Below, in pieces: positions 48,127-56,705 of a stretch of DNA of 64,000 nt. The position numbers and the translations under genes were made by a program. Origin of the DNA: Rhizobiales bacterium PAR1 (lineage in GTDB: Bacteria > Pseudomonadota > Alphaproteobacteria > Rhizobiales > Beijerinckiaceae); the NCBI GenBank assembly GCA_002256205.1, contig NKIW01000002.1, positions 248,001-312,000 on the forward strand, written 5' to 3'. How positions within the stretch are numbered: the first letter of the stretch is position 1; each line of letters begins with the position of its first letter. The notes beneath the pieces were generated by a model. It ran no database searches, was not told where the DNA came from, and was given only the letters and a program-made list of their open reading frames with translations.

Positions 48127-48765
48127 ATGTCCCCGCTTCTGCGCCCCTTCGCTGTGCTTCTGGCCCTCGGCCTGTCCGGGATCGGCGCGCTCGCCCATCC
48201 GCATGTGCAGGTGAGCGTGAAGATGGATGTGGTACTCGACGATTCCGGCGCGATCACCGCCGTCCGCCACCACTGGACATTCGATGAGGCCTATTCCGCC
48301 TTTGCCTCCAACGGGCTCGATGCCAACAAGGATGGCAAGCTCGACCGGCAGGAACTCGCCGCTCTGGCGAAGGAAAACGTCGAATCTCTCGGCGAATTCG
48401 GCTTTTTCACCTTCATCCGCAAGGGCAAGGAGACTTCCGGCTTCGGTGCACCGGCGGATTATTTCCTAGACCACGACGGTAAGGTGCTCACCTTGCATTT
48501 CCTCCTGCCCATCGAAAAGCAGCGTCTCCAGGCGAAGGAGGCGCGGCTGGAGGTCTATGATCCGAGCTATTTCGTCGCCTTCGAATTCGACAAGAACAAG
48601 CCGGTGAGCGTGGAAGGCGGCAAGCTCGCCTGCGTGGCGAAGGTCATGGCGCCGCCCGCCTCAGTTACTGCGCGGCTCTCGCAGATGAGCGAAACCTTTT
48701 TTCAGGGCATGAAAGGTTCGGAGAGTTCGGAATGGTCGATCCCGGTGAAATTCGATTGCAAATGA
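48127..48765 (+). CDS. DUF1007-family periplasmic protein with EF-hand-like loop
   Basis: 212 residues. A signal peptide (about 1-23, cleavage before HPHVQVSVKMDV) precedes a DUF1007 domain. The mature N-terminus HPHV carries a pair of His that could bind metal. A calcium-type loop DANKDGKLDRQEL is embedded near residue 65. DUF1007 proteins usually accompany nickel/cobalt or zinc transporters, here the NicO-type gene 13 bases downstream, and are thought to act as periplasmic metal-handling partners. CAGGAAACC precedes the ATG. Confidence 0.83.
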   Translation: MSPLLRPFAVLLALGLSGIGALAHPHVQVSVKMDVVLDDSGAITAVRHHWTFDEAYSAFASNGLDANKDGKLDRQELAALAKENVESLGEFGFFTFIRKGKETSGFGAPADYFLDHDGKVLTLHFLLPIEKQRLQAKEARLEVYDPSYFVAFEFDKNKPVSVEGGKLACVAKVMAPPASVTARLSQMSETFFQGMKGSESSEWSIPVKFDCK

Positions 48766-48778
48766 CACCGGGCTGCCT

Positions 48779-49720
48779 GTGAATTTCGTCTTCAACCTCA
48801 CCTCTCGTCGCGCCTTCGGAGCCTTACTGGCCTTGCTTGGGCTGACGGCCAGCGCCTTCGCGCAGACCAACCCCTTCGGGCAGCGCACACCTGTCGGCCC
48901 GGCGATTGAACCGGCAAGCGGCATCGCGCTCTGGTTCCTCCAGCAGCAGGCGGCTTTTCACAAGGCCCTAACAACCAGCATCGGCGCAGTTGCCACCGAT
49001 CCCGCCGCGCTCTGGGGCCTGATCGGGCTCGCATTCGCCTATGGTGTGCTCCACGCCATCGGTCCCGGCCACGGCAAGGCCGTGATCGCGAGTTATCTCG
49101 TCGCCAATGAAAGCGCGATGAAGCGCGGCATTGGTCTCGCCTTCGGCGCGGCACTGACGCAGGCGGTGATTGCCATTGGCGTCGTGGCGCTTGTCGCGGG
49201 CCTGATGAACGGCACCGCAGCAACGATGAACCGCACGGTCGATATCGTTGAAAAGGCCGGCTTCGGCATCATCCTAGCAATGGGGCTGTGGATCGCGTGG
49301 CGGAAAGCGCGCGCGCTGTTATCCCCCAAAGAGGCTCTCGCTTGCGAGCCCGATTGTGGCCACGATCACGGCGGCGATCCGCGCCTGCTCGTCAAAGCGG
49401 GCACACGCGAACTGGTGCTGACGGCCATCGGTGCGGGCATTCGTCCTTGTTCAGGTGCGATCATCCTTCTGGTTTTCGCATTGGCCAAGGGACTGTTTCT
49501 TGCCGGCGCGCTGTCCGTCGGCGCAATGGCAGTGGGCACAGCGCTCGGAACCAGTCTTTTCACCCTCCTCGCCGTGAAGGCCAAGGTACTGGCACTCAAC
49601 TTGATTTCCGGCAGCGGCACCTTCAGGCGCGTAGGGCTCATCCTTGAGCTCCTCGCCGGGCTGGCGCTCGCCGCTTTCGGTCTTGCACTGCTGCTGGGCG
49701 CGATGAGCGGCGGGAGTTAA
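48779..49720 (+). CDS. NicO-family nickel/cobalt(-like) transporter
   Basis: 313-residue membrane protein with a signal-like first helix and about six further helices. The family metal motif is in HAIGPGHGKAVIASYL (helix 2) and a second in GAGIRPCSGAIILLVFALA. A cytoplasmic loop carries CEPDCGHDHGGDP, a Cys/His patch that may bind metal. RcnA-like members export Ni or Co; others import. The start is a GTG 13 bases after the DUF1007 stop. The nearby zinc genes make zinc a possibility. Direction and metal are not proven. Confidence 0.83.
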   Translation: MNFVFNLTSRRAFGALLALLGLTASAFAQTNPFGQRTPVGPAIEPASGIALWFLQQQAAFHKALTTSIGAVATDPAALWGLIGLAFAYGVLHAIGPGHGKAVIASYLVANESAMKRGIGLAFGAALTQAVIAIGVVALVAGLMNGTAATMNRTVDIVEKAGFGIILAMGLWIAWRKARALLSPKEALACEPDCGHDHGGDPRLLVKAGTRELVLTAIGAGIRPCSGAIILLVFALAKGLFLAGALSVGAMAVGTALGTSLFTLLAVKAKVLALNLISGSGTFRRVGLILELLAGLALAAFGLALLLGAMSGGS

Positions 49721-51460: not shown

Positions 51461-51694
51461 ATGGCCGAAAAGCGCCTCAACCGTCAGAACGCTGTCACGG
51501 TGATTTGCGCTGCCATTCTCGTCGGCACCGAGATCATCGCCGCTGCGCTGGCGCTCGGCTGGGCGCTTGGCGGCCTTACTGGCTGGGGCAAGGAATTCAC
51601 CATGGGGCTCATTGCCGTGTGCCTCGCAGCGGGTTGCTACATGACCTACCGCTTCGTCGTTGGCGCGATCAAAGTCGAACCCATCTTCGAATAA
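51461..51694 (+). CDS. small membrane protein of unknown function
   Basis: 77 residues with a strong ribosome binding site (AAGGAG nine bases before the ATG). Two hydrophobic helices (about 11-37 and 47-70) are separated by a short Gly-rich loop GGLTGWGKE, and the tail is acidic. The family is common in alphaproteobacteria as an unnamed protein; I do not recognise a function. It lies just before the Zur-type operator and runs in the same direction as the zinc genes, but the operator and promoter come after its stop, so it is not clearly part of that unit. Confidence 0.7.
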   Translation: MAEKRLNRQNAVTVICAAILVGTEIIAAALALGWALGGLTGWGKEFTMGLIAVCLAAGCYMTYRFVVGAIKVEPIFE

Positions 51695-51719: not shown

Positions 51720-51749
51720 TTGCCGTCGCGATTGTGTTATATTATAACA
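51720..51749 (+). promoter_or_regulatory. Zur-type operator over a sigma-70-like promoter
   Basis: A perfect palindrome TGTTATA-T-TATAACA lies at 51735-51749, identical to the core of the proteobacterial Zur consensus (zinc uptake regulator, a Fur-family repressor). A promoter can be read as TTGCCG (51720-51725), 17 bases, TATAAC (51743-51748), so the operator covers the -10 box and zinc-bound Zur would block transcription of the genes after it. No zur gene was found in the window. Confidence 0.85.
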
Positions 51750-51755
51750 TATCTC

Positions 51756-51998
51756 ATGGTTGCCTCGCACAAACACTCAGTTGAACTGTCGCCCATTGCC
51801 GAGGCACACGAGCATCATGCCCATGCTCATCACGGGCATCGGCATGACCATCTCCACCAGGCAACGCACGAGCACCGGGCTACTTCCGAACCCCGCTTCT
51901 CATTGATCGCCTTGTCCGCTCTGCAACGGCTGGCGCTTGTGGCGCCAGCGATCCTTGCGCTGGGCCTGCTGGCACTATGGGCGACGAAAAATGGCTGA
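51756..51998 (+). CDS. His-rich small membrane protein, first gene of the zinc operon
   Basis: 80 residues. The first 40 hold 14 His (motif HEHHAHAHHGHRHDHLH at 18-34), then a Pro/Ser linker and one hydrophobic helix (about 50-76) near the C-terminus, giving a tail-anchored metal-binding topology. The ATG is six bases after the Zur palindrome and coincides with the predicted transcription start, so the mRNA may be leaderless; there is no ribosome binding site. The stop overlaps the znuC start by eight bases. It may buffer or hand over zinc. I know of no named family; a purely regulatory role of the frame is possible. Confidence 0.7.
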   Translation: MVASHKHSVELSPIAEAHEHHAHAHHGHRHDHLHQATHEHRATSEPRFSLIALSALQRLALVAPAILALGLLALWATKNG

Positions 51999-52725
51999 CC
52001 CCGCGCTGCACTTTCACGATCTGACGCTCGGGTATGACCGGCACCCCGCCGTGCACCACCTTGAAGGCACCGTAGCGCGCGGCGATTTGCTGGCGATTGT
52101 CGGCCCGAACGGCGGTGGGAAGTCCACGTTGCTTAAAAGCCTCGCAGGGCGCCTGAAGCCACTCGGCGGCACCATACACAATACGTTTCCAAGCCTCGCC
52201 TATATGCCGCAAATCGGCGATCTCAACCGCGATTTCCCGGTTTCAGTGCTAGATCTCGCGCTCACCGGCCTTTGTGGCAAGCGCGGCATGTTCGGCTGGA
52301 TCAGCCGCGAGGAACGCAGCCGCGCGCAAGAGGCGCTGACATCGGTGGGGCTCAACGGCTTCGAAAACCGCTCGATCCGCACGCTCTCAGGCGGGCAATT
52401 GCAGCGCCTGCTTTTCGCGCGGCTGATGCTGCAGGATGCCGATCTGATCCTGCTCGACGAACCCTTCACCGCCATCGATTCCCGCACTATCGAGGATCTG
52501 ATGATGATCGTGCAGCGCTGGCATGCGGAAGGACGGACCGTGCTCGCCGTACTGCACGACCTTGATCTCGTACGCGCCGAGTTCCCGCAGACGCTGCTCC
52601 TGGCGCGCGACCCGCTCGGCTGGGGCCCAACAGCAACCGTGCTGACCGAGCCCAAACTCTCCGCCGCGCGCCGAATGGCGGAAGCTTTCGATCGCAACGC
52701 CGCAGAATGCGTGAGAGCCGCCTGA
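51991..52725 (+). CDS. znuC: zinc ABC transporter ATP-binding protein ZnuC
   Basis: 244-residue ATPase of the zinc/manganese importer class. Walker A GPNGGGKST, signature LSGGQLQRLLFARLML, Walker B LILLDEPFTAID and H-loop in VLAVLHDLDLV. The start overlaps the His-rich frame and the stop overlaps znuB. The ribosome binding site is weak (GGGCGACG), so translation probably depends on the upstream frame. It powers ZnuB for high-affinity zinc uptake when Zur is released. The metal could be manganese in related systems, but the Zur box and the COG0523 gene favour zinc. Confidence 0.9.
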   Translation: MADPALHFHDLTLGYDRHPAVHHLEGTVARGDLLAIVGPNGGGKSTLLKSLAGRLKPLGGTIHNTFPSLAYMPQIGDLNRDFPVSVLDLALTGLCGKRGMFGWISREERSRAQEALTSVGLNGFENRSIRTLSGGQLQRLLFARLMLQDADLILLDEPFTAIDSRTIEDLMMIVQRWHAEGRTVLAVLHDLDLVRAEFPQTLLLARDPLGWGPTATVLTEPKLSAARRMAEAFDRNAAECVRAA

Positions 52726-53591
52726 TGCTCTACGATCTTCTCATCGCCCCCTTCGTCGAATTCCCCTTTATGAAGCGTGCGCTCGTCGGCGGCATCGCGA
52801 TCTCGCTCGGCGCTGCCCCCATCGGCGTCTTCCTGATGCTCCGGCGGATGAGCCTCATCGGCGACGCGATGGCGCATGCAATCCTGCCCGGAGCGGCCAT
52901 CGGTTTCCTGATCGGCGGTCTCTCGCTGGGCGCGATGACCCTTGGCGGGCTTGTCGCAGGCCTCGGCGTGGCGCTGGCCTCCGGCCTCGTCTCCCGCTCG
53001 ACACTGGTGAAGGAGGATATGGCCCTCGCTGCCTTCTACCTGATGTCGCTGGCCCTTGGCGTAACGCTGGTGTCGGCGAACCGCTCTAATGTTGATGTAC
53101 TCTCCTTCCTCTTCGGCTCGATCCTCGCCCTCGACGACCCGACATTGTGGCTCATCGTGTCGATCGCCAGCACCACCCTCATCGCGCTGGCGGTGGGGTA
53201 TCGCGGCATCTTGATGGAATGTCTCGACCCCGGCTTTGCCGCCGGCGTCAGTCGATTCGGTTCAGTGTTTCACCTTGGTTTTCTGGTTTTCGCAGTGCTG
53301 AACCTTGTCGCGGGCTTTCATGCGCTCGGAACGCTGCTCGTCGTCGGCATCATGATGCTGCCAGCGGGCACCGCACGGCTCTGGAGTGATGATGTCGGCG
53401 CGATGGTCCTGATCGCGATTCCCGTCGCAATGGTCGCTAACATCGTCGGCCTGCTGATTTCTTATCATGCTGGCCTTGCCTCGGGCCCGGCGATTATCCT
53501 TGTCGCAGGCGGGCTCTATACTGCCTCGCTGATCTTCGCACCGCATGGGCTGTTGCGCCAGTTTATGCCTAAACGCCACCTCGAAGCCTGA
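52725..53591 (+). CDS. znuB: zinc ABC transporter permease ZnuB
   Basis: 288-residue ABC-3 family permease with about eight helices. Family sequence includes the N-terminal EFPFMKRALVGGIAISLG, then RMSLIGDAMAHAILPGAAIG, FLFGSILALDD and the C-terminal YHAGLASGPAIILVAGGLY. The chosen ATG overlaps the znuC stop (TGATG) and has GAGAG eight bases upstream; an ATG at 52707 is possible. It forms the zinc channel across the inner membrane. Confidence 0.9.
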   Translation: MLYDLLIAPFVEFPFMKRALVGGIAISLGAAPIGVFLMLRRMSLIGDAMAHAILPGAAIGFLIGGLSLGAMTLGGLVAGLGVALASGLVSRSTLVKEDMALAAFYLMSLALGVTLVSANRSNVDVLSFLFGSILALDDPTLWLIVSIASTTLIALAVGYRGILMECLDPGFAAGVSRFGSVFHLGFLVFAVLNLVAGFHALGTLLVVGIMMLPAGTARLWSDDVGAMVLIAIPVAMVANIVGLLISYHAGLASGPAIILVAGGLYTASLIFAPHGLLRQFMPKRHLEA

Positions 53592-53608: not shown

Positions 53609-54556
53609 ATGATCCAGCTTCTGCGCCGCATCACAAAAATTGTAACGTTATACCGTTTTATTCCAATTTGCCTCGGACTGGCGGTTTCTCTCCCTGTTCA
53701 GGCCCAATCCCCGGTGAAACCGCTGGAAGTCGTTGTCTCTTTCTCGATCCTTGCAGACCTTACACAACAGGTCGCGAAGGAACGCGCCCATGTCGTCGCG
53801 CTCGTCGGCCCCAACAGTGACGCGCATGTCTACCGTGCGACGCCGGCGGACGCGAAGGCGCTGAAGGAAGCCGGGCTGATCATCGTCAATGGTCTCGGCT
53901 TTGAAGGCTTCATGCCCCGGCTGATCAAGAGCTCGGGCACGAAAGCAACGGTGGTGGTGGCCTCTACCGGCGTCAAGACAATCGAAGCCGAGGAGGATCA
54001 CGGCGGCAAAGGCGGGCACAGCCACGGCAAGATCGACCCTCACGCATGGCAATCAATCGAGGCCGCGAAGACCTACATCGCCAATATCCGCGACGGGCTT
54101 TCAAAAGCCGATCCCGCTGGCGCCGAGGTCTACGCGAAAAACGCCGCCGCCTACCTTGCCGAGTTGACCGCTCTGAAGGCCGACCTCGACAAAATGTATG
54201 GCATCATCCCGCCGCCGCAGCGCATCATTGTGACGAGCCACGACGCCCTCGCCTATTTCGGGCGTGAAAACCTTTTCACCCTCGAAGCCGTGCAGGGCGT
54301 ATCAACCGACAATGAACCGTCGGCAAAAGATGTCGCACGTATCATCCGCACTGCACGTGAGAAAAAGGCCCGCGCGATCTTCATCGAAAACATGACCAAC
54401 CCCAAGATCGCCGAGCAAATCGCTCGCGAATCCGGCGCCAAGATTGGCGGCACACTGTTTTCTGATGCGCTCTCCGATGAAAAAGGCCCCGCGCCCACCT
54501 ATATCGCGATGATGCGACATAACGCGAAAATGCTTGTCGAGGCCCTCCGGGACTAG
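53609..54556 (+). CDS. znuA: zinc ABC transporter solute-binding protein ZnuA
   Basis: 315-residue periplasmic zinc-binding protein (cluster A-I). After a signal peptide (cleaved near VQAQS) come the ligands expected for this class: His in NSDAHVYRATP, His in DPHAWQS, His in VTSHDALAYF and the Asp of LFSDALSDE. The His-rich loop (EEDHGGKGGHSHGK) between the first two ligands is typical but short. It follows znuB by 17 bases. The start of the coding region (about 53630-53665) is AT-rich and contains an imperfect Zur-like sequence, which may be chance. Confidence 0.9.
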   Translation: MIQLLRRITKIVTLYRFIPICLGLAVSLPVQAQSPVKPLEVVVSFSILADLTQQVAKERAHVVALVGPNSDAHVYRATPADAKALKEAGLIIVNGLGFEGFMPRLIKSSGTKATVVVASTGVKTIEAEEDHGGKGGHSHGKIDPHAWQSIEAAKTYIANIRDGLSKADPAGAEVYAKNAAAYLAELTALKADLDKMYGIIPPPQRIIVTSHDALAYFGRENLFTLEAVQGVSTDNEPSAKDVARIIRTAREKKARAIFIENMTNPKIAEQIARESGAKIGGTLFSDALSDEKGPAPTYIAMMRHNAKMLVEALRD

Positions 54557-54640
54557 GAAGGGCTTGAAGGTTGCGCCGCTTTTCGCTTGAACGGGAAACA
54601 ACAGGGCATCGCGACCGACGCGGTGCCGGAAGGATCTGAT

Positions 54641-55711
54641 ATGGCTGACAAGACCCCCGCCGAGAAAATCCCTGTAACAGTGCTGACCGGCTATCTCGGT
54701 GCCGGCAAGACAACACTGCTCAACCGCATCCTCTCCGAGCCGCATGGGAAGAAATACGCCGTTATCGTCAACGAATTTGGCGAAATCGGCATTGATAACG
54801 ATCTCGTCGTCGGGGCAGACGAAGAAGTCTTCGAAATGAACAACGGGTGCATCTGCTGCACCGTGCGCGGGGATCTCATACGAATCATCGAGAACCTGAT
54901 GAAGCGCAAGGGCCGCTTCGACGCCATCATCGTCGAAACCACAGGCCTCGCTGATCCTGCCCCCGTCGCGCAGACCTTCTTTGTCGATCAGGATGTGCAG
55001 GACAAGGCACGGCTCGATGCCGTCGTGACCGTGGCGGACGCCAAATGGCTCGCCGCGCGCCTCAAAGACGCGCCGGAAGCCAAGAACCAGATCGCTTTCG
55101 CCGATGTGATCCTGCTCAACAAATCAGACCTTGTGACCCCGGCGGAACTGCGCGAGGTCGAGGCTCGCATTCGCGGCATCAACCCTTATGCGACGCTGCA
55201 TAAAACCGTAAAATGCGCCGTTCCACTGGATGCCGTCCTCGGGCGTGGCGCCTTCGATCTCGAGCGTATCCTCGAATTCGAACCGGCCTTCCTTGAGAGC
55301 GATGATCATAACCATCATCACGACCATGATCACGAATGCGGGCCGGGCTGCACGCACGGCCACCACGATCACAGCCATGATCATCATCACGGCGGCTTGA
55401 AGCATTATCACGACGAGGAGATGCAGTCGGTCTCGGTCGCGCATGAGGGCGATATCAACCCCGAGAAATTCATGCCGTGGATCAACGATCTGGTGCAGGT
55501 CGAGGGACCGAACATCCTGCGCTCCAAGGGCATCCTCTCCTTCACGAACGAGCCGCGCCGCTTCGTATTTCAGGGCGTTCACATGATCTTGGATGGCGAT
55601 CTCCAGCGCGACTGGAAGCCAGACGAGAAGCGCGTGAGCCGCATCGTCTTCATCGGCCGCAAGCTCAATCCCGAAGCGCTGCGTTCAGGGTTCCTTGCCT
55701 GTGTCGCGTGA
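54641..55711 (+). CDS. COG0523 (CobW-like) zinc-related GTPase with His-rich loop
   Basis: 356-residue G3E GTPase. Motifs: P-loop [13 protein letters not shown] (about 17-25), the metal-binding CxCC in [12 protein letters not shown] (about 73), VETTGLADP and NKSD for guanine. A very His-rich loop ([19 protein letters not shown], then [12 protein letters not shown], near 220-260) precedes the C-terminal CobW-C domain. Zur-controlled members (ZigA, ZagA type) deliver zinc to proteins under zinc limitation, which fits the location after znuA. AAGGA stands nine bases before the ATG at 54641. A distant metal such as cobalt is less likely here. Confidence 0.9.
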
Positions 55712-55712
55712 G

Positions 55713-56705
55713 ATGCCGAACGCCCAGATCCAGACGCTGACGGACCGCGTCACCACGCTCGCCTTTGATCAGCACGTGCTCAAGGCCGGGTTCTTCGGCG
55801 ACAAGCCATGGTTCGTGCTCGCCGATGGCGCTGTTCAGATCGGCCGCGAAGCCCCGGCATTGCGCCCGCACGGCGATTCGATCCTCGTCGCGGTCGCGGA
55901 TCAGACGCGGATCGTCACCGGCGGCGACGATGGCAAGGTCATCGAGACCAAGCCGGATGGCACGACGCTAGTTCTCGGCGACGAGAAGGGCAAATGGATC
56001 ACCGCCATTGCGCTCGGCCCCGATGGCACCACCGCGTGGAGCGCGGGCAAGACCGTGCGCATCAGAGACGCCAAAGGAAAGATCAAGGAGCGCATCGCAC
56101 CCTCGACCTCGCAAGGCCTAGCCTTCGCGCCGAAGGGCCTGCGGCTGGCCATCGCGCATATCGACGGCGCGACGCTCTGGTTCCCGAACATGGATGCGGA
56201 GCCGGAAAAGTTCGAGTGGAAGGGCCCGCATCTCGACGTCACCTTCTCACCCGATAACCGCTTTCTTGTGACCTCGATGCAGGAAAACCAGCTTCACGGC
56301 TGGCGCCTTGCGGACAAGGGGCACATGCGGATGTCGGGCTATCCGTCGAAGACGCGCTCTTTTGCGTGGTCACACGATGGGCTCTGGCTTGCGACCTCTG
56401 GCGCGGAAGGCGCCATCGTCTGGCCCTTTGCGAAGGACGGCCCGACCGGAAAAGCGCCGAGGGAATGCGGTATCCGCCCGGCGAAGGTCTCTCAGGTCGC
56501 CTTCCACCCCAAGGCGCTGGTGCTGGCCATCGGCTTCGAGGACGGCTGGGTGATCCTCGTCCGCTTCACTGACGCGGCCGAACTTCTGGTTCGCGCGGGC
56601 GGCGATGGCTCGGCGATCACGGCACTCGCGTGGAACAGGGACGGCAAGCAGCTCGTGTTCGGCTCCGAGAGTGGTGGCGGCGGGCTGCTCACGCTGCCGG
56701 TTTAG
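55713..56705 (+). CDS. WD40-repeat protein
   Basis: 330 residues made of WD40-like repeats, a seven-bladed propeller in all likelihood; blades show repeated units such as DQTRIVTGGDDGKVIE, LDVTFSPDNRFLVTS and ALAWNRDGKQLVFGSESG. There is no signal peptide, so it is cytoplasmic. It starts one base after the COG0523 stop (a TTG inside that gene is a weaker alternative) and is thus coupled to it. WD40 genes next to COG0523 genes recur in alphaproteobacteria. It may be a scaffold for a metallochaperone; no experimental function is known to me. Confidence 0.82.
   Translation: MPNAQIQTLTDRVTTLAFDQHVLKAGFFGDKPWFVLADGAVQIGREAPALRPHGDSILVAVADQTRIVTGGDDGKVIETKPDGTTLVLGDEKGKWITAIALGPDGTTAWSAGKTVRIRDAKGKIKERIAPSTSQGLAFAPKGLRLAIAHIDGATLWFPNMDAEPEKFEWKGPHLDVTFSPDNRFLVTSMQENQLHGWRLADKGHMRMSGYPSKTRSFAWSHDGLWLATSGAEGAIVWPFAKDGPTGKAPRECGIRPAKVSQVAFHPKALVLAIGFEDGWVILVRFTDAAELLVRAGGDGSAITALAWNRDGKQLVFGSESGGGGLLTLPV

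Follow-up and report, generated by a model that had tools for sequence, protein, structure and literature searches.

Does a histidine-rich frame of 80 codons, placed directly upstream of zinc-importer genes, encode a protein, to which family would this protein belong, and what could it do beside the importer? The question arises in a stretch of 64,000 nucleotides from Rhizobiales bacterium PAR1, analyzed here as a whole and referred to as the window. An earlier note, made from the sequence alone, had described the frame as a Zur-controlled, His-rich small membrane protein at the head of a znu operon and had not recognised its family.

The microprotein frame, its operon and its promoter

The frame (positions 51756..51998, forward strand; 80 codons and a stop) comes first in the operon and was listed as a microprotein gene on the basis of its conserved position, its conserved core and a dN/dS below 1. 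The sequence bears out the description of its product in the earlier note: the 80-residue protein contains 14 His, every one of them in residues 1-40, followed by one hydrophobic segment. It can be divided into a His-rich arm (residues 1-46, with the 14 His; 51756..51893, forward strand), which in the genus varies in length and stays His-rich, and a conserved core (residues 47-80; 51894..51995, forward strand), which holds an SL..S...RL motif and a transmembrane helix at residues 50-79 (alignment A3). AlphaFold2 predicted a single helix at residues 50-79 (block pLDDT 93-97) and modeled residues 1-49 without a helix and at low confidence. The stop codon (51996-51998) overlaps the start of the ATPase gene at 51991 (ATGGCTGA), so that the frame does end inside the downstream gene, which the earlier note had called znuC.

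The genes behind it encode an AztA/ZniC-type ATPase (51991..52725; PF00005), an AztB/ZniB-type permease (52725..53591; PF00950), and an AztC/ZniA-type zinc-binding protein with a short His loop (53609..54556; PF01297), all on the forward strand. Their best NCBIfam matches were AztA, AztB, and AztC, each below the cut-off of the equivalog model (206.9 of 220 bits for NF040873, 249 of 280 for NF040871, and 284.8 of 350 for NF040870). The permease scored 249 bits with AztB versus 67.5 with ZnuB, and the binding protein 284.8 bits with AztC versus 67.4 with ZnuA. With an ATPase, an ABC-3 permease and a ZnuA-type protein nearer to the Azt than to the Znu models, the locus was assigned to the Azt/Zni-type importers in a broad sense, and the name znu was dropped since by NCBIfam scores the importer is nearer to Azt/Zni than to classical ZnuABC. 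With 82% identity in AztB, the nearest named record is L087, a Beijerinckiaceae metagenome assembly. A COG0523 (CobW-type) GTPase gene with a His stretch (54587..55711, forward strand; PF02492, PF07683) is a possible further member of the operon, and judging from its position it may be co-transcribed with the importer genes. The region 3' of the importer genes (54587-56705) comprises this GTPase, with a long His/Cys stretch, and then a WD40 protein. Elsewhere in the window (48127-49720), a DUF1007 protein adjoins a NicO-type metal transporter, and in Paracoccus versutus, too, the azt operon has a DUF1007 gene next to it.

The promoter described in the earlier note, with a -35 element TTGCCG (51720..51725, forward strand) separated by 17 bases from a -10 element TATAAC (51743..51748, forward strand) and overlapping a perfect Zur palindrome, is present in the sequence exactly as stated, upstream of the ATG at 51756. 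All 17 genus members keep TATAAC, 5-7 nt ahead of the ATG, and 16/17 keep TTGC at the 17-base spacing; the 17th member has TTGATA at 19 bases. A strict sigma-70 scan of the region, which requires a T at position 6 of the -10 element, did not list this promoter, and its assignment therefore rests on conservation across the genus. Just 5' of the promoter there is a 77-residue frame with hydrophobic segments (51461-51694), for which no family match was obtained.

The Zur-type palindrome TGTTATATTATAACA (51735..51749, forward strand) lies over the -10 box, within the promoter. It is an exact match and the sole match in the window at ≤3 mismatches, where 0.07 would be expected. At ≤1 mismatch, the core Zur pattern was found genome-wide at the present locus and in one other place. 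This near-copy (L348; G000:C5 near 47615), the only other one in the genome, has a Fur-family gene on one side and a second COG0523 GTPase gene on the other, and is likely to mark a zur/COG0523 divergon. Genome-wide counts of the pattern at ≤1 mismatch were no higher than those of a reversed control (3 vs 6 hits), so the weight of the palindrome lies in its exactness and its neighbours and not in its count. Among the genus members the palindrome matches 12 to 15 of 16 defined bases, and the exact form is not found in all 17. The Zur control put forward in the earlier note is thus supported by the exact palindrome and by the near-copy beside Fur-family and COG0523 genes, but not by the rarity of the pattern, and the position over the -10 box together with the neighbours of the second copy supports putative control of the operon by Zur.

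We also surveyed 183 microprotein loci for the distance between palindrome and start codon. Among the 129 whose palindrome matched 12 or more of the 16 bases, the first in-frame ATG or GTG stood 4-10 nt behind the palindrome in 60, compared with 5.9 expected from shuffling, and the remaining 69 did not fit such a leaderless layout. By group, the layout was seen in 17/17 genus members, in 21/25 named Nitrobacteraceae (chiefly Bradyrhizobium), and in 2/24 loci outside the class. Leaderlessness is therefore not general across the microprotein family. Within the genus of the window a leaderless message is likely, because TATAAC stands 5-7 nt before the ATG throughout. In the main-text part of the Bradyrhizobium start-site paper (PMC4842269), zinc, zur, and znu are not mentioned. 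With repressor site, promoter and start codon within about 40 bases in the genus, the locus offers a compact case of regulation.

Distribution of the microprotein and its linkage to aztA

Relatives of the microprotein occupy the same place in 17/17 same-genus genomes searched (PAR1 included) and in further loci beyond the genus, so that the conservation which the earlier note had proposed to look for is there. What is conserved is the C-terminal core of about 30 residues, made up of SL..S...RL, one transmembrane helix, and LW...WA. At E≤0.001, a 21-row profile matched 236/298 family genomes, most of them a single time, and 41/289 genomes of the class. When 56 newly fetched loci were inspected (best matches only), znuC/aztA adjoined the match in 45. 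Ten matches without znuC were His-driven and were rejected (L066, L068, L069, L071, L072, L078-L080, L084, and L085); they start at profile positions 7-23 within long frames of their own, and that of L084 extends to position 80. Another locus (L077) matched in the core but is cut by the end of its contig. Likewise, 9 of the first 30 loci retrieved with the 80-residue query were without znuC. A definition of the family by His-richness was discarded, as many members have no His arm. The earlier view of a His-rich membrane protein as the first gene thus stands as regards a real and conserved gene, but not as regards His-richness as its defining trait. The shortest members, of 32-35 residues, come from Klebsiella, Neisseria, and Gemmobacter.

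Linkage to aztA was assessed on a held-out set of 80 named loci (the best 80 of 568), selected by AztB and not by the microprotein, of which 78 have aztA. A core model built from 27 seeds (loci L001-L086) was searched against 13,678 six-frame fragments. Directly upstream of aztA, the core was found in 45 of the 78 at E≤0.001, in 68 at E≤1, and in 72 at E≤10, and elsewhere in these loci there were 0, 0, and 7 matches at the same thresholds. In one of the 78, merely 26 nt upstream of aztA were available. Two importer loci (L152 and L166) had no microprotein on inspection.

Two broader sets were searched with a model that shares seeds or lineages with them, and seven genomes of the class-wide set had earlier given seeds or loci. 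The phylum-wide set of 83 loci, made up of 82 of the 85 AztB genomes of the draw (window included) and one added genus member, had the core upstream of aztA in 63 at E≤1; away from that place there were 0 matches at this threshold and 15 at E≤10. The remaining 20 were ten loci of one family (f24), seven of another (f213), L245, L248, and L227, the last with a weak match (E 6.1). No core was found in this set in the ten f24 loci or in the seven f213 loci, and the upstream region of the latter differs. In the class-wide set of 85 loci (83 with aztA), the core was detected in 69 at E≤1 and in 72 at E≤5, and 7 of the 11 misses show a short hydrophobic frame by eye.

Among 12 annotated records of a plasmid collection, the core was found upstream of aztA in 8, from Klebsiella, Neorhizobium, Methylobacterium, Gemmobacter, Enterobacter, Skermanella, Bartonella, and Neisseria. 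It was not found there in two Paracoccus records, in Mesorhizobium, or in Bradyrhizobium sp. 172, whose permease is just 45% identical; the latter record has an off-position core match in an unrelated gene (L261, E 6.5e-5). Both Paracoccus loci (L251 and L252) are aztABCD operons without the microprotein, and the AztA of L252 has a mild His tail. The gene is listed only in the Skermanella record among the 8 positives, as a hypothetical protein; the gene table is by its own account incomplete, and for two of the 8 records no gene at all is given in this stretch. Annotation looks to have mostly passed over this family, and a search of the open-licence literature returned no paper on the small protein. 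Judged by the loci at hand, the microprotein is not indispensable, because some importers of this type lack the gene.

The family, which the earlier note did not recognise, also has no counterpart in the databases searched: no Pfam or NCBIfam family matches the members consistently. Neither the 21 full members nor the 39 cores searched matched the Pfam families of KdpF, CydX or AcrZ-like proteins at E≤0.1. The weak Pfam matches that did occur, such as YkpC at 0.045, each concerned no more than two members. ZrgA (PF10986) was rejected as well, with 12.1 bits against a cut-off of 27.4 (E 0.19) over residues 6-41 only. The structure search yielded no solved relative and one chance match at E 1.8. 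By the shared core alignment (A3), in which SL..S...RL and a single span occur directly upstream of aztA, the proteins form a microprotein family that is undescribed in the databases and open-licence literature searched; both its existence and its linkage to Azt/Zni-type importers are strongly supported.

Selection, topology and the histidine arm

The earlier note had proposed a codon substitution test of coding constraint, and the outcome was positive in both sets analyzed. Among 16 Bradyrhizobium-type loci, dN/dS was 0.23 in the core and 0.14 in the arm, with 307, 204, and 867 changes in the core at the first, second, and third codon positions. Among the 17 genus members, it was 0.39 in the core and 0.28 in the arm, whose alignment is rough. 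Aligned His codons of the Bradyrhizobium-type loci formed 1211 identical pairs, 488 CAT/CAC swaps, and 287 pairs with a non-His partner, and those of the genus set 765, 532, and 871, respectively, in pairs that are not independent. In the genus the arm stays His-rich while single His positions shift. The frame at 51756-51998 is a real gene under selection, and conservation together with the codon test rules out a spurious frame.

The orientation of the protein was estimated from its charges. Of 246 members, 214 had a higher net charge ahead of the most hydrophobic 19-residue window than after it, 7 a lower one, and 25 an equal one, with a mean of +1.71 before the span (15 residues) and of +0.15 behind it. 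By the positive-inside rule, the more positive flank is cytosolic. This charge distribution thus points to an N-terminus, and with it an arm, located in the cytosol.

A His-rich segment is found in some loci on AztA instead. An arm was scored when the 60 residues preceding the core contained at least 4 His, and a tail when AztA had at least 8 His after residue 200. In 281 distinct loci there were 114 with a microprotein arm, 23 with an AztA tail, and none with both. Tails were present in 0/114 arm-bearing and 23/167 arm-less loci, a difference (Fisher's P 6e-6) that is not significant once ancestry is counted (P = 0.26 for no overlap), and an independent-pairs test on a smaller locus set was without power. 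Parsimony placed six tail gains on the AztA tree, in which arm-bearing branches make up 20% of the length, and for the arm 13 gains and 3 losses on what is a quick tree with many weak branches. AztA proteins bearing tails of 8-16 His were observed in L194, L203, L206, L207, L213, L255, L067, L307, and L336, among others. These patterns hint at a His module able to ride either on the microprotein or on AztA. Since AztA is cytosolic by family, they would fit a cytosolic module.

Possible roles and comparison with known systems

Starting from a gene whose conservation, linkage and selection were computed and from a helix that was predicted, we propose with moderate confidence that the microprotein is a small, single-pass, N-in subunit of the Azt/Zni-type importer, and that its cytosolic arm catches or senses zinc. 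When zinc is scarce, Zur would leave the palindrome over the -10 box and the microprotein would be made, in the genus from a message that probably starts at the ATG or within a base or two of it. Translation would then run on into the overlapping aztA start. From the geometry of the locus and the charges we infer this control, the leaderless start, the translational coupling and the topology, in which the product would sit as a single-pass protein in the inner membrane with its N-terminus in the cytosol. As a conjecture, the core helix (SL..S...RL, then the span) might pack against the permease AztB or against the interface of permease and ATPase, stabilising or tuning the importer as MgtU, MgtS, and AcrZ do with their partners. 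Equally conjectural, the arm at the cytosolic mouth might catch incoming zinc and buffer it, pass it on, or slow the loaded importer. If the subunit reading were true, three-gene work on Azt/Zni-type importers would have omitted a component, which would bear on symbionts, free-living and some human-associated bacteria. It would also offer a way to approach what becomes of zinc as it leaves an ABC importer on the cytosolic side, through natural paired systems in which the small protein or the ATPase carries the His module, or neither does.

A wider form of this proposal would be a general fourth subunit (about 30-100 residues) of Azt/Zni importers, in which a cytosolic His arm or AztA tail brakes the importer by trans-inhibition; we hold this for a tentative idea, doubtful at present. 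To our knowledge, no trans-inhibition device of that kind is known for zinc ABC importers. Slightly more doubtful still is a turnover or feedback adaptor: upon the return of zinc, the loaded arm would cause the helix to inhibit the importer or to target it for proteolysis, and the protein would act as a brake. For magnesium and manganese transport, small proteins with inhibiting, stabilising or proteolysis-targeting effects on the transporters are on record (PMC10710835), and an optional arm on a common helix is what would be expected of a sensor added to a general partner; yet many members are without a His arm, and a helper fits the data as well as a brake does.

The subunit reading also has to be set against a free-standing, membrane-tethered zinc buffer that is co-regulated with the importer without being part of it. 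Such a role would suit a protein with so many His in its first 40 residues, a Zur-type box, and a His-rich COG0523 protein in the cluster, but we consider it improbable, as the arm-less members keep their place beside aztA and the core occurs almost only beside aztA in the tested loci. Somewhat more improbable is an arm on the periplasmic side (N-out), from which AztC or AztB would receive zinc. AztD, ZinT, and the His-rich domains of binding proteins are periplasmic precedents for zinc, but the charges favour N-in in 214/246 members against 7 with the reverse, by eye the protein in the window has its sole hydrophobic segment at the C-terminal end, and AztA, with comparable tails, is cytosolic by family. 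Very improbable, finally, is a frame translated merely to start aztA, with an irrelevant peptide: the closeness of its stop to the aztA start, only a few bases in the genus and in many others, and the lack of a clear ribosome site seen by eye before aztA in the genus, agree with it, but there is constraint on core and arm at the amino-acid level, the helix motif can be made out in genomes as far apart as Klebsiella and the small AT-rich ones of the class, and in several loci a gap of about 40-160 nt separates the frame from aztA.

Among importers, the closest comparison for the proposed subunit is with ZniCBA. In PMC10797113, the system of Klebsiella pneumoniae is a locus of binding protein, permease and ATPase flanked by mltB and pncC and is described with three genes; the Klebsiella record analyzed here differs in that a member of 35 residues follows mltB and precedes the ATPase frame. 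For Rhizobium leguminosarum, PMC12183173 describes three genes, with the Zur motif lying 153 bp ahead of zniC. This resembles the 150-152 nt that separate the best box match from aztA, with the microprotein within, in three f24 loci (L182, L186, and L187), where these matches cover only 11-13 of 16 bases and a second palindrome adjoins. The ZniCBA of PMC11647595 is unrelated.

With ZrgA, a His-rich zinc uptake protein, the microprotein has a His-rich stretch in common. We know of no His-rich arm in MgtS, MgtU, MgtR, MntS, AcrZ, LucB or KdpF. In size, in its single helix and in its tie to one transporter, the microprotein is like the first six of these proteins as presented in PMC10710835, and KdpF, named in PMC10903887, is likewise a small single-span partner of a transporter. 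According to PMC2770081, UreG bears a His stretch in most genomes without UreE, and such a stretch carried by either of two partners resembles the pattern of microprotein arm and AztA tail. The G3E metallochaperone systems (UreG/UreE, HypB, and COG0523) differ from the microprotein, which is without a GTPase domain, is predicted to be membrane-anchored, and lies in the operon of an importer.
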